In this document: one piece after another, positions 5,738 through 29,935 of the stretch
Position numbering within the stretch: position 1 is the stretch's first letter
How the letters are laid out: each line of letters begins with the position of its first letter
Origin: Cornus controversa
Taxonomy: Eukaryota > Streptophyta > Magnoliopsida > Cornales > Cornaceae
Reading direction: 5' to 3'
Length of the DNA: 64,000 nucleotides
Assembly: GCA_026545225.1 (NCBI GenBank)
Contig: CM048845.1
Span: 90,584,533-90,648,532, forward strand
The notes under the pieces: generated by a model
What the model was told of the DNA's origin: nothing
What the model saw: the letters and a program-made list of their open reading frames with translations, nothing else
The model's database searches: none
Position numbers and translations under genes: made by a program

Positions 5738-5813
5738 TTATACACATCCTTGATCACTCATCGCCTGAGCAATAGTCAGAAAAGCAGAGATCATTGCTCC
5801 ATGTACCAAAACC
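5738..5813 (-). CDS. Terminal exon of the GDH-like gene
   Basis: The minus strand reads ...GGCAG|GGTTTTGGTACATGG. After completing the split glutamate codon it encodes [18 protein letters not shown] then SDQGCV and TAA. This matches the C-terminal helix of hexameric GDHs (E. coli GdhA ends in a similar VADAMLAQG segment). The acceptor is a good AG, and phase 2 matches the donor GTAAGT at 14761-14756. It lies 8.9 kb from the preceding exon because transposons fill the intron. Confidence 0.9.
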
Positions 5814-8800
5814 CTGCCAAAGGGAAAAAAAATGGAAAGAAAAAGAGGGAAAAAGAAATTAAAAGAAAAAAGAAGAAAGATTAGAGAAATAGAAATAATA
5901 AAGAATTCAGATGCAATTTAATGTCAATTTCTACAACTTTTACATGCTAATACGATATGTAAGCTACTTGTCCAAATGCTAAGTTGCTAACTAATTTGAA
6001 ACCCTGATTTGTGTGGATGTATTGTCCACAAAAATAACTAAATAAAATTATAAAAAACATATTTTCAAATTATGCATGCGTTTAGGAAGTATCGGACACG
6101 TATTTGTGACTATTCGAGGAGTGTTGGTATCTGATACGGATACGTTACCCTTGTAGAAGTATCCGTGCTTCCTAGGATAGGATTGACTAAAAAATATAGG
6201 ATTAATAATCATGTGAGATGGAAAGTAGAAGTGACGCCTATTAGTGATAAAGTAGACTAGGGGGGTATGGTTATATACAACGGAGACCCATGGAGTGGAT
6301 TTATTTGCATAGAAACTAAGAGACAAGGACAACCAAAACTCATCATGTAGGATGAAGTAATTAGAGATGATCTTAAAAAATAAAATATAATAGGAGACAC
6401 AACCTTTAATAGAAAAGATCGGGGAAAGAGAATTTATGTGGCTAACCCCATTTATATGGGATAAAGGCAAAGATGATGTTGATGAGATTTCATTGTGTTG
6501 CTGAATCCTAATTTAATGCATAACAACCAAACAGAACCTTTTTCTAATGCCTTGATCATGGCAATAGAATAAAGATTAACGAAAGAACTAAAAATGTTTG
6601 GTGACCAATTTGGATTTATGTTAGGAACATCTACAATAGAGGTCATTACTTAATAAGACAATTAATTGGTAAAATCGCATAAATTAAAAGAAAGTTTCAG
6701 ACATGATTTTCATAAACTAAGATAATGCATACAAATGATAGCCAAGAGATATACTTTGGTGGGCCTTAAAAAGAAAAGACATTCCGGTTAGTTTCACCAA
6801 AAATATCTAAGATATGTGTAAAGATAAAAGCACTAGAGTTGTGCGTATAGAGTACAGGACAAGAGTTCACATATTCTATGAGAAGAAACTAATGATTTTC
6901 TAATAAAGTAGTATTACACCAATAATCTGTACTATTCCCCCATATCTGTCCGCAATCATTCTATATGAAATAATGAAAGGTATAAAAAGAGACATTCCAC
7001 GGTGCACATTATTTTCTAGTGACATAATTCAATAGACACTTCTATGGAAACCCATGAAAGCTTGGATAAATGAGCTAGGAGTCAAAATGTTAAAAGTTTT
7101 ATAGAAGTGGAATGTTAATTCAATATAGATAGTGTTGTGACACCTAATAGTCAACTCTTCCTTAATTAGGGGCTTGATCAATTATCTCTTAATTAGGGGT
7201 ATAATTTATATTTCCATATATTGTTGTCTTCCTTATTTTATTTCTTGAAAATACTATATATTGAGATTGTAATCACCCTTTGGAATATGAAATACAGATT
7301 ATATTTCTCTCTCTCTAATAGTTCTCTCAATTTAGCTTATATCTCTGACATGGTATTAGAGCGTCAATGTTAAAGTTGGAGACTTAACATGAGTTTCTTC
7401 TTCTTCTTCTTAGTTTCTGCCTTTTTTTTTTTTTTTTGTATCGTTGGCTTTTCTACTTTTTCTCTCTATCATTTGGATAGAGATGACCTAGAACCCTAGG
7501 TTTTCAAAAAAAAAAAAACAGTATCTTTGTTCTTGATCTCATGTTCAAATTCTTTAGTTCTCTTGCTTGAAACTTGTACTCGGATTATCTCGTCTTAGCT
7601 ATCATGGGTGACAATACCTACACCATTCCTCTCGGTTATATGATCTAGACTCATCTCGAATCTCTTCGTCTTGGATATCATGGATCGTGGTGGTCGCAGT
7701 ACCAAGAAGCGTACATATAGTGGCCGCACCAACCATTCTATTGATTACTGTTGGAAACTCCACAGCAAGCCCGCATGGACAAATTAGGCTACGGTTAAGG
7801 GGGAGAACTCTTACTCCACAGCTGAGGAACAAATTTTTATTCCCAAGGTAGAGTATGATTCAATTATCAAGCGCATCAATCTTCCATCCACCTCCACAAC
7901 CACTTTGTTCGATTCAGGTAATACTTGTCTTCTTTCCTCATCCAATACATCTTGGATTATTAATTCAGGGGCCTACGATCATATGACACGTAATTTTTCC
8001 CTTCTTTTTGATTTTTTCCATACTTCCTCTCCCTCTTTTGTTACAATAGCTAACGGTACCAAATCTCCAGTCCAGGGAATTAGTACTGTTAGCACATCTA
8101 GTCTAACATTCTCCTCAGTTTTGTACCTACCTCAGTTTCCCTTTAATTTATTATCTATTCCTAAACTTACCTCTGCCTTAAACTGCTCAATAACGTTTTA
8201 TCCTAACCACTGTGTCTTTCAGGATCTAAAAACGAAGAGGATTATTGGTGGGGGCTTAGCAAGGGATGGTCTCTACTATTTTCAACCATCTCGCTCACCT
8301 ATTCCATCTGCACTCCATAACACGACTTCTCCGTATCAGTGGCATTGTGGTCTTGGGCGTCCTTCGTTAGACAATCTTCGGCATTTAGGTCTCCCTTTAC
8401 CTTCTTTTTCTAGTTTTAATTGTGAAACTTGTGAGCTTAGTAAGCATCATAAGACTTCTTTTAAGCTTAGGTCTGATGGGCCTTGTTTGCACCCTTTTGA
8501 ACTAGTTCACTCCAATATTTGGGGTCCAGCACGAACTACTGGTCTTTCTGTTGCGCGTTATTTTGTTTCGTTTATTGATGACTATTCTCGTTTAACTTGG
8601 TTATACGTGCTTAAAGATAAATCTCAAGTGTTTCATGCTTTTAGATCTTTTTATGCTGAAATCACTAATCCATTTGATGCCAAGTTACATATTCTTAGAA
8701 CTGACAATGCTCTAAAATATAAAGAAGGTACCTTTCAGCAATTTCTTGAGTCAAGGGGTATCACCCATCAGACTTCCTGTGTTCATACTCCTCAACAAAA

Positions 8801-29800: not shown

Positions 29801-29935
29801 ATCCCCAGGCCCGATTTCCAAATCAATCTCTTCTCCAAGCTCCCTAACCACCAGGTGATGCCTCTGCGCCTGCTGAATTAAGTTCATATCATCCATAGCA
29901 GAATTCATCCCTAACCCACTGACTGGTAGCAACAT
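5738..29935 (-). CDS. Glutamate-dehydrogenase-like protein with N-terminal zinc finger (15 coding exons)
   Basis: Exons, in transcript order: 29935-29374, 28568-28439, 28324-28123, 25918-25832, 25731-25672, 25568-25482, 20446-20375, 20237-20182, 18678-18593, 17995-17905, 17824-17667, 17546-17455, 16241-16161, 14835-14762, 5813-5738. All introns are GT-AG and phases join to 637 codons plus stop. Residues 94-102 (KRKKKVVKR) look like a nuclear signal; C127, C130, H158 and H164 form a C-x2-C-x27-H-x5-H finger. About residue 215 onward matches hexameric GDH: GGLRFHP (278-284), [23 protein letters not shown], Rossmann SGSGKIA (423-429) and QGCV at the end. GDHs interconvert glutamate and 2-oxoglutarate with NAD(P). 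Here the catalytic lysine of GGxKGG is Ala313 and the YKGG lysine is Arg277, while the third lysine (301) and Asp353 remain, so activity is doubtful. From memory it resembles Arabidopsis At1g51720, annotated as NADP-GDH-like. M10 is an alternative start. Confidence 0.9.
6055..6480 (+). mobile_element. LINE (RTE-like) 3' end fragment
   Basis: Decayed plus-strand translation gives the C-terminal wording of plant RTE-like LINEs: RRP-like [40 protein letters not shown] gggataaaggc tail with GTT-like triplets follows (about 6457-6480). Stops interrupt it throughout. It lies in the last intron of the GDH-like gene, in antisense to it. Confidence 0.65.
7133..7350 (+). repeat. Copia 5' LTR
   Basis: 218 bp, begins tgttgtgaca and ends ctctgaca, directly followed by tggtattagagc, the usual iMet primer-binding string. 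It pairs with 13493-13740. Confidence 0.92.
9815..12279 (-). mobile_element. Non-coding LTR element nested in the Copia copy (LTR + primer site + short LTR stub)
   Basis: Flanked by perfect 5-bp duplications agctc (9810-9814 and 12280-12284). Read on the minus strand it starts tgtagagactg at 12279 and has a long LTR-like part to 9918 ending ggtgtgaca. The primer-site string tggtatcagagc follows at 9914-9903, then a short spacer, then a 41-bp stub (9855-9815) repeating the LTR end with about six differences. No gag or pol is visible. A block containing ctactgagccgtcgtggtgc (minus strand, about 10845-10805) is shared with the element at 21099-23936. It lies within the RT region of the Copia copy and so is younger than it. 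Confidence 0.8.
10145..10355. repeat. Imperfect tcgatgcatcga-type repeats in the nested LTR element
   Basis: The string tcgatgcatcgat or close variants (tcgatggatcga, tgcatcgatc) recurs about ten times over roughly 200 bp. Each is partly palindromic, so the stretch could form small hairpins. It lies inside the LTR-like part of the nested element. Confidence 0.6.
13493..13740 (+). repeat. Copia 3' LTR with CT-repeat expansion
   Basis: 248 bp. It is longer than its partner only because of a (CT)n run at about 13666-13706. Otherwise it aligns along its whole length with about 12 substitutions. Confidence 0.92.
14396..14757. other. Intron 14 remainder of the GDH-like gene, nothing recognised
   Basis: Between the LINE tail and the penultimate coding exon. 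AT-rich intronic sequence without recognisable element ends. Confidence 0.4.
16527..17042. mobile_element. Foldback MITE, Mutator-like
   Basis: The 516-bp element begins gggtaaattacc and ends with its reverse complement ggtaatttaccc. The two halves are long inverted copies: ccaaaattacccttcaaatg on the left is mirrored by catttgaagggtaattttgg on the right. Flanks tatttatta (16518-16526) and tttttatta (17043-17051) match at 8 of 9 positions, the duplication length of Mutator-type transposons. There is no transposase. It sits in an intron of the GDH-like gene between exons 12 and 13. Confidence 0.8.
18694..20166. other. GDH-like intron 8, no element recognised
   Basis: A long intron between coding exons 8 and 9 with two A runs (18902-18916 and 19987-19998). 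No reverse transcriptase, terminal repeats or other gene seen. Confidence 0.45.
20725..21035. repeat. Two-unit tandem duplication of about 157 bp
   Basis: Unit one (about 20725-20880) and unit two (about 20882-21035) both run from agcatgNcgtggaatatgaa through gcaatattctaaatcttttt, aacaaaactaatgtacaa and gaatatactcttgttatgca. They differ at roughly one base in ten. Lies in the intron between coding exons 6 and 7, just before the LTR element at 21099. Confidence 0.8.
21099..23936 (+). mobile_element. Non-coding LTR element (LTR + primer site + short LTR stub)
   Basis: 2838 bp bounded by perfect duplications tatat (21094-21098 and 23937-23941). It starts tgtaatgacccgg; an LTR-like part ends ggcatgaca at 23799. 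Then come tggtatcagagcatgg (23803-23818) and about 120 bp, and the element closes with ttcggggcgtgaca. The middle is GC-richer (21780-22660), with chance frames but no retroelement domains. It has (AT)n and (AC)n runs at 21191-21286 and a 52-bp two-unit repeat at about 23536-23639. Layout and one block (ctactgagccgccgtggtgctcacc, split here) are shared with 9815-12279, in opposite orientation. Age cannot be set from an LTR pair because there is none. Confidence 0.78.
24545..24574 (+). repeat. Poly(G) run of 30
   Basis: Thirty consecutive G residues in the intron between coding exons 6 and 7, so the transcript would carry poly(C). On the DNA level such a tract can form G-quadruplexes. Homopolymer length is also the least reliable kind of base call. 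Confidence 0.85.
25070..25107 (-). mobile_element. Extremely 5'-truncated LINE tail with 19-bp target duplication
   Basis: Identical 19-bp copies of gctagcatatggtatgttt (25051-25069 and 25108-25126) enclose 38 bp. Read on the minus strand these end in gaattttacttataaaaaaa, the usual tail of plant L1-type LINEs. The duplication and oligo-A show target-primed reverse transcription that stopped almost at once. Confidence 0.75.
26238..26929. mobile_element. MITE with GC-rich subterminal ends, probably hAT-type
   Basis: It begins catagttgtt followed by aaggctcaaggcgc and ends in gcgccgacaactatg, so the first bases are inverted at the other end. Flanks ctcatatt and cccatatt match at 7 of 8, the hAT duplication length. 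It contains a roughly 125-bp tandem duplication (about 26441-26567 and 26568-26690) starting aatattccaatttcaagatt. No transposase. It lies in intron 3 of the GDH-like gene. Confidence 0.6.
26930..28122. other. GDH-like intron 3 remainder, nothing recognised
   Basis: AT-rich intron sequence with no conserved coding pattern and no element ends that I can pair. Confidence 0.4.

Follow-up and report, generated by a model that had tools for sequence, protein, structure and literature searches.

The window analyzed here, a stretch of 64,000 nucleotides from Cornus controversa (assembly GCA_026545225.1, contig CM048845.1, positions 90,584,533 to 90,648,532), carries a predicted minus-strand gene of about 24 kb whose product combines an N-terminal zinc finger with a complete pair of glutamate dehydrogenase (GDH) domains from which the catalytic lysine is missing. 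Spliced from the window coordinates, the gene consists of 15 exons that form a single open reading frame (ORF) running from an ATG at 29908 to a TAA at 5738; all 14 introns are of the GT...AG type, the phases are consistent, and the spliced frame comprises 628 codons without a stop. An alternative in-frame ATG at 29935, located 27 bases upstream and directly behind a stop codon, would add nine residues and yield a protein of 637 amino acids. Residues are numbered here from the ATG at 29908; in the first-pass annotation of this stretch, which counted from 29935, the same residues carry numbers higher by nine.

Three Pfam domains scored above their cut-offs in the predicted protein, namely the zinc finger and, end to end, ELFV_dehydrog_N (residues 233-360, 2.7e-48) and ELFV_dehydrog (residues 379-626, 9.9e-67). 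The last 446 residues matched the NCBIfam model NF006929, which describes GDHs specific for nicotinamide adenine dinucleotide phosphate (NADP), with 555.7 bits against a cut-off of 536, and the closest solved structures, 3r3j (482 bits), 9yis, 2bma and 5ijz, are all glutamate dehydrogenases. These matches uphold the statement of the first-pass annotation that the fold is intact.

Active-site residues were compared through a pairwise alignment to the GDH chain of structure 1bgv, in which 184 positions are identical. We take 1bgv, 3r3j and 3sbo to be the GDHs of Clostridium symbiosum, Plasmodium falciparum and Escherichia coli, respectively, and C. symbiosum numbering is used throughout. The catalytic lysine K125 of the GGxKGG motif is replaced by Ala304 (25874-25876) in exon 4 (25832..25918), where the segment reads GGAAGG, and K113 is retained in the same exon as Lys292 (25910-25912). 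In exon 3 (28123..28324), Arg268 (28186-28188) takes the place of K89 and Cys267 that of Y88. Exon 6 (25482..25568) reads PSED for PAGD, with Ser342 and Glu343 for A163 and G164 and with the general base D165 retained as Asp344 (25551-25553). Exon 7 (20375..20446) has Pro373 for K195 of the TGK segment (20429-20431) and keeps T209 as T387; exon 9 (18593..18678), which encodes the dinucleotide motif GSGKIA, has Lys418 for N240 (18654-18656); exon 12 (17455..17546) has Met546 for K370 (17473-17475) and Gly549 for N373 (17464-17466) and keeps N347 as N524; and exon 13 (16161..16241) has Gly556 for S380 (16230-16232). R205 is also retained. Since the changes are spread over seven exons (3, 4, 6, 7, 9, 12 and 13), sequencing noise or an assembly error is an unlikely source for them.

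Grouped by function, the changes affect both contacts of the substrate gamma-carboxylate, K89 and S380 (now R268 and G556, the arginine being a conservative replacement), and two of the four residues of the nicotinamide pocket, N240 and N373 (now K418 and G549), with the other two, T209 and N347, kept as T387 and N524. The first-pass annotation had placed Ala313 at the GGxKGG lysine, Arg277 at the YKGG substrate lysine and a glycine at the serine of the GGVxxSG block, and had found the K113 and D165 equivalents (Lys301 and Asp353) in place; the alignment to 1bgv agrees on every one of these residues and reveals a wider change of the active site than was noted there. A shift to another amino acid as substrate was considered and rejected as an explanation of the pattern, because leucine and phenylalanine dehydrogenases keep the K125 equivalent and such a shift leaves its loss unexplained.

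In Arabidopsis GDH1, Lys102 is described as priming the water molecule and Asp142 as the base, with a nicotinamide pocket formed by Asn216, Thr185, Asn312 and Asn337 (PMC7326016); by our own matching of motifs, these residues pair with K125, D165, N240, T209, N347 and N373, respectively. In the 2006 survey by Jaspard, the K125-equivalent lysine is assigned to catalysis and stands in the consensus of 15 of 15 subsets of 116 GDHs, and K89 is given a role in binding the substrate gamma-carboxylate (PMC1716157). Lacking conserved catalytic residues of its active family, the protein falls within the definition of a pseudoenzyme used in PMC10211241.

The extent of these departures was measured against bacterial NADP-type GDHs drawn from five taxonomic samples, six plasmids, and a scan for lysine-less GDHs (described below) with the genomes that it returned. 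After removal of tblastn pieces of fewer than 500 bases, rows of fewer than 400 residues or 330 bits, and repeats (193 rows, reduced to 167 and then to 152 with the window domain added), the alignment held 151 bacterial rows, 128 with K125 and 23 without it, plus the window domain. The 128 lysine-bearing rows, which serve as the reference, are all bacterial and derive partly from best-scoring and partly from hand-picked loci; the plant domain is 37.5-50% identical to them. At 83 columns that are at least 99% conserved in this reference, the plant protein keeps 68 residues and departs at 15, compared with a mean of 0.26 departures (largest 10) for the lysine-bearing rows themselves and 2 to 11 for the 23 lysine-less rows. 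N240, N373, S380, G164, K195 and K370 are each retained in 127 or 128 of the 128 rows, and K89 is a lysine in all 128, which are NADP-type GDHs chosen for K125. Among 103 rows whose loci were selected for neither the motif nor a low score (six plasmid genes included, after filtering for length and score), K125 is a lysine in 102; the remaining row is the second member of a tandem whose locus was returned for its lysine-bearing neighbour. Changes fell on five of nine substrate, catalytic and nicotinamide residues versus 10 of the 74 other conserved columns (Fisher one-sided p 0.008), although the nine residues were listed after the changes were known and S380 was taken from the first-pass annotation and background knowledge. 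The ELFV signature PS00074 had no match in this protein, which is one of 41 misses among the 152 rows, the pattern used having itself matched 111.

The zinc finger (zf-C17orf113, PF25431) occupies residues 102-165 (29414..29605, minus strand) and was detected at 7.4e-26 with Pfam and at 1.8e-26 in a second scan, with 90.2 bits against a Pfam cut-off of 29.5 and 62 of 63 profile positions covered. By reading of the sequence, C118, C121, H149 and H155 are the putative zinc ligands (C-x2-C-x27-H-x5-H). A basic stretch, KRKKKVVKR, precedes the finger at residues 85-93 (29630..29656, minus strand), and we take it to resemble a nuclear localisation signal. The finger is confined to exon 1 (29374..29908; residues 1-178 plus one base), apart from the GDH exons, and a scan of the 772 Mb genome returned one match to zf-C17orf113, which is this gene; the finger therefore appears unlike a transposon-type repeat in this genome. 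The name C17orf113 is absent from the open-licence literature searched, and neither exon 1 nor exon 3 had a relative among viral contigs in the search made. Both the zinc finger and the basic stretch were missed by the first-pass annotation, and together they suggest a regulatory, possibly nuclear, role involving nucleic acid or chromatin.

Searches of the plant's own genome, in which only the best candidates were scored, returned three other GDH genes, at 53.0 Mb on C6 and at 45.9 and 57.7 Mb on C8. These belong to the distant class using nicotinamide adenine dinucleotide (NAD) and retain GGAKGG (as GGAKGGIGC), GFGNVG and the Asn of N[AS]GG. No close lysine-bearing partner was found among the best candidates scored. 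A search with the whole protein recovered every exon of this gene except exon 8 (14 of 15) within the best 20 candidates, the sole match elsewhere among them being a partial copy of exons 13-15 on the same chromosome, outside the window (C1:33355924-33366399, plus strand). Identities in this copy are 93% for exon 13 and 92% for exon 15. The exon-14 stretch of the copy reaches 74%, and exon 14 of the gene itself scores no differently, since the stretch extends beyond the exon.

GDHs without the catalytic lysine were sought in 84,980 prokaryote species, each represented by a single genome, with the motif GG[AG]-x-GG-x-DFDP and a codon not beginning with A at the lysine, a design that misses other spellings of the motif, Asn, Thr, Met and Ile codons, and some Ser and Arg codons. 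The scan returned 31 stretches, of which three (L013, L032 and L037) are chance matches and 28 are real GDH frames, with 13 Ala, 5 Ser, 3 Gln, 3 Glu, 2 His, 1 Arg and 1 Cys in place of the lysine; the Glu and Gln cases are one base away from Lys and may be errors. One Glu-bearing frame, from Streptomyces canus (L038), is split, contains a stop and looks broken. In Oscillospiraceae and their kin, a lysine-less gene (GGASGG or GGAAGG, with N373 changed to Gly) lies directly behind a lysine-bearing gdh on the same strand at seven of nine distinct loci examined (L014, at 1883-4549, L021, L022, L027, L110, L111 and L112; L015 is apparently the same contig as L111 and was left out of the count). The remaining two loci are cut, the upstream GDH ORF ending before the lysine in L010 and too little upstream DNA being present in L019. 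The two genes are separated by about 300 bases in L112 and by no more than tens of bases at the other loci, and the members of the three pairs with both genes aligned are 49-52% identical. Such a tandem is likely a two-gene operon of an active and a dead GDH. A second group, from Desulfobacterales and their kin, carries GGGAGG, GGAQGG, GGAHGG and similar segments with Ala, Gln, His, Cys or Arg for the lysine (L009, L012, L017, L020, L023, L024, L028, L030, L031, L033, L051 and L057); in one genome examined, that of Desulfosarcina widdelii, three full-length NADP-type GDH genes are present, one of them without the lysine.

When the label "no lysine" was followed on a quick tree, four changes were counted among the 23 bacteria, at least three by starred branches, and the catalytic lysine has probably been lost several times in GDHs. 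The branch leading to the plant domain is very long (1.96 and 1.69 changes per site in two trees), which makes the placement of this domain unsure. A clade uniting it with the clostridial lysine-less genes was not rejected on the quick tree of 97 rows with all columns (approximately unbiased test, p 0.49, log-likelihood difference 0.67); it was rejected on a careful tree of 43 rows with all columns (p 0.014, difference 38) and again with 17 active-site columns masked (p 0.001, difference 45), these columns having been chosen after the plant departures were seen. We therefore reject common ancestry with the clostridial genes on the two 43-row tests, the 97-row quick test dissenting, and the likeness at K125 and N373 is, with the same dissent, best read as convergence. 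A clade with the Desulfobacterales group was not rejected in the masked 43-row test (p 0.12, difference 19); that group nests among lysine-bearing Desulfobacteria, mostly has GGGAGG and, unlike the plant protein, mostly keeps N373. The loss in the plant protein probably occurred separately from the bacterial ones, although this is not certain.

Altogether, these observations suggest that the gene encodes a zinc-finger protein built on a complete GDH domain pair that would act as a non-catalytic, perhaps nuclear, GDH-fold regulator, and we assign this reading a probability of roughly 0.6. The lack of GDH activity that the sequence predicts is well supported: with the water-activating lysine lost, along with two of the four nicotinamide-pocket residues and both contacts to the gamma-carboxylate, GDH catalysis by this protein is unlikely. 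Together with the preservation of the rest of the domain and an unbroken gene of 24 kb, these losses fit a protein retained for something else. With the catalytic lysine and further ligand residues lost, annotation as a working NADP-GDH is doubtful, as had been cautioned from the outset. The GDH part would fold and assemble into an oligomer. A hexamer built from a single kind of subunit is probable, because the other GDHs found in the genome are of the distant NAD class. Such an oligomer could present several zinc fingers and basic tails for the binding of DNA, RNA or protein, and a ligand (amino acid, 2-oxo acid or nucleotide) or a partner would set its state; the possible contacts for a ligand are K113, D165 and R268, which are still present, and the Rossmann motif GxGxxA. 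On this view the protein, derived from a GDH, would serve in regulation, possibly in the nucleus, instead of assimilating ammonium.

Several points weigh against this reading. The gene most likely belongs to the plant GDH4 class (AT1G51720, which we take to be AtGDH4, and OsGDH4), an assignment made from length, class and general knowledge of the family. Plant NADP-GDHs have been placed in chloroplasts (PMC7326016; PMC9820731), which is at odds with a nuclear protein should those statements refer to this gene, and for Brassica juncea a measured activity of NADPH-GDH is cited in PMC9820731. Passing an equivalog model would be expected of a tolerant enzyme as well, with K113, D165, T209, N347 and the GxGxxA glycines kept; Arg in place of K89 is seen in large GDHs (PMC1716157); K418 brings a new lysine into the nicotinamide pocket; and pseudoenzymes may have migrated catalytic residues (PMC10211241). 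Additionally, comparison of the zinc finger to solved structures in the PDB gave no convincing match, the sole hit (E 0.43) being discarded, and a single-sequence AlphaFold model of residues 85-178 was unusable (mean predicted local distance difference test score 45.1, predicted template modelling score 0.29).

Among the alternatives, a dehydrogenase, working or altered, that uses a residue such as K418 in place of K125 or carries out a related reaction survives best, and we still regard it as unlikely. The retention of K113, D165, T209 and N347, the new lysine at the nicotinamide pocket and the migrated residues known from other pseudoenzyme families speak for it, but N373, S380, G164, K195 and K370 have been lost as well, and the K125 equivalent is present in all 15 of the subset consensuses of Jaspard's 116 GDHs. 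Next in order, and improbable too, is a non-catalytic partner subunit that joins an active GDH and tunes it, like the dead paralogues of some enzyme pairs. The bacterial layout, with a lysine-bearing gdh just upstream of the lysine-less gene at most of the Oscillospiraceae-type loci examined, offers a precedent, as does the trypanosomatid deoxyhypusine synthase that is activated by a dead paralogue (PMC3663545); however, the other three GDHs of this genome are of a distant class, NAD-GDHs are described as mitochondrial (PMC7326016), and the zinc finger would be left unexplained. Ranked below it, and doubtful in our view, is the scaffold or sensor proposed in the first-pass annotation, which would bind dinucleotide and glutamate/2-oxoglutarate in the normal way. 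K113, D165, the Rossmann glycines and both domains are retained in accordance with it, whereas two of the four nicotinamide-pocket residues and both contacts to the gamma-carboxylate have been replaced; the doubt that the protein is a working GDH is upheld, and the claim that it still binds these ligands is weakened because many contacts (N240, N373, S380, G164, K195 and K370) are lost. A decaying gene or a mis-spliced model, which the long branch and the partial 3' copy of exons 13-15 could reflect, is very improbable given 15 exons without a stop or a broken splice site, 68 of 83 near-invariant columns kept, and a pepper homologue of the same length class that is 78.5% identical to the Arabidopsis gene (PMC13259437).

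A wider form of the regulator reading concerns the whole GDH4 class, which might consist of nuclear zinc-finger regulators on a dead GDH hexamer that carry an amino-acid, 2-oxo-acid or redox signal on carbon and nitrogen status to gene expression; we put this forward tentatively and at clearly less than even odds. The pepper CcGDH has 634 residues, is 78.49% identical to AT1G51720 and is predicted to be nuclear or mitochondrial (PMC13259437). A rice survey groups AtGDH4 and OsGDH4 in one class that is more conserved than the NAD-GDHs, reports wide expression of OsGDH4 and, as gene-family surveys do, counts the class as NADP-GDH (PMC9820731). A review calls the activity and function of Arabidopsis GDH4 "still not clear" (PMC7733991), ammonium assimilation by NADP-GDH in plants is described as controversial (PMC1716157), and no account of the function of AT1G51720 was found in the excerpts of open-licence literature searched. 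Among the listed matches of a search on the GDH catalytic lysine and pseudoenzymes, only PMC1716157 concerns plant GDH4 by its title; this covers open-licence papers and is no proof that the loss is unpublished. If the GDH4 class cannot catalyze, counts of NADP-GDH genes and inferences from their expression need rereading, and plants would be without a true NADP-GDH of this type. If the protein is non-catalytic, it becomes, as a conserved plant protein, a candidate for connecting nitrogen metabolites to the regulation of genes.

The remaining exons, all on the minus strand like those given above, are exon 2 (28439..28568), exon 5 (25672..25731), exon 8 (20182..20237), exon 10 (17905..17995), exon 11 (17667..17824), exon 14 (14762..14835) and exon 15 plus stop (5738..5813). 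The last intron, intron 14 (5814-14761, 9 kb), contains Ty1/copia-like pieces on the plus strand at 7788-9799 and 12482-13456, with integrase and gag-pre-integrase domains at 7788-8999 and the rest identified by eye. Elsewhere in the window, the NB-ARC and leucine-rich-repeat frames of a gene of the plant disease-resistance type lie, broken up, at 736-3132 (plus strand), a tandem array of 13 copies of a unit of about 42 bases lies at 39330-39882, partly within a long open frame, and a Gypsy-like element lies at 40794-47376 (minus strand), with RNase H and reverse-transcriptase-like domains at 40797-41624 and the rest identified by eye. A frame at 53225-53497 (minus strand) presumably resembles ribosomal protein uS8 (S15a), and the Pfam scan gave nothing there at E 0.01.

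Compared with known systems, the protein shares with the hexameric NADP-GDHs (NF006929; 1bgv, 3r3j and 3sbo) the domains, their order, K113 and D165, and differs from them in lacking K125 and many ligand residues and in having an additional N-terminal zinc finger, so that a zf-C17orf113 domain is here fused to a GDH domain pair. It resembles the plant GDH4 class (AT1G51720, AtGDH4, OsGDH4 Os01g0558200 and CcGDH) in length (634 residues in pepper versus 628-637) and in its NADP-type class; in the excerpts of the GDH4 literature, that class is treated as a GDH, and neither a zinc finger nor loss of the lysine is mentioned. The lysine-less GDHs of Oscillospiraceae, in tandem, and of Desulfobacterales have lost K125 like the plant protein, and the clostridial group is also like it in the change of N373 to Gly and in GGA[AS]GG. 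Unlike it, the bacterial proteins consist of GDH domains only (two were scanned) and mostly keep K89 and S380, and their tandem pairs offer a further and simple system for studying what role a lysine-less GDH plays.

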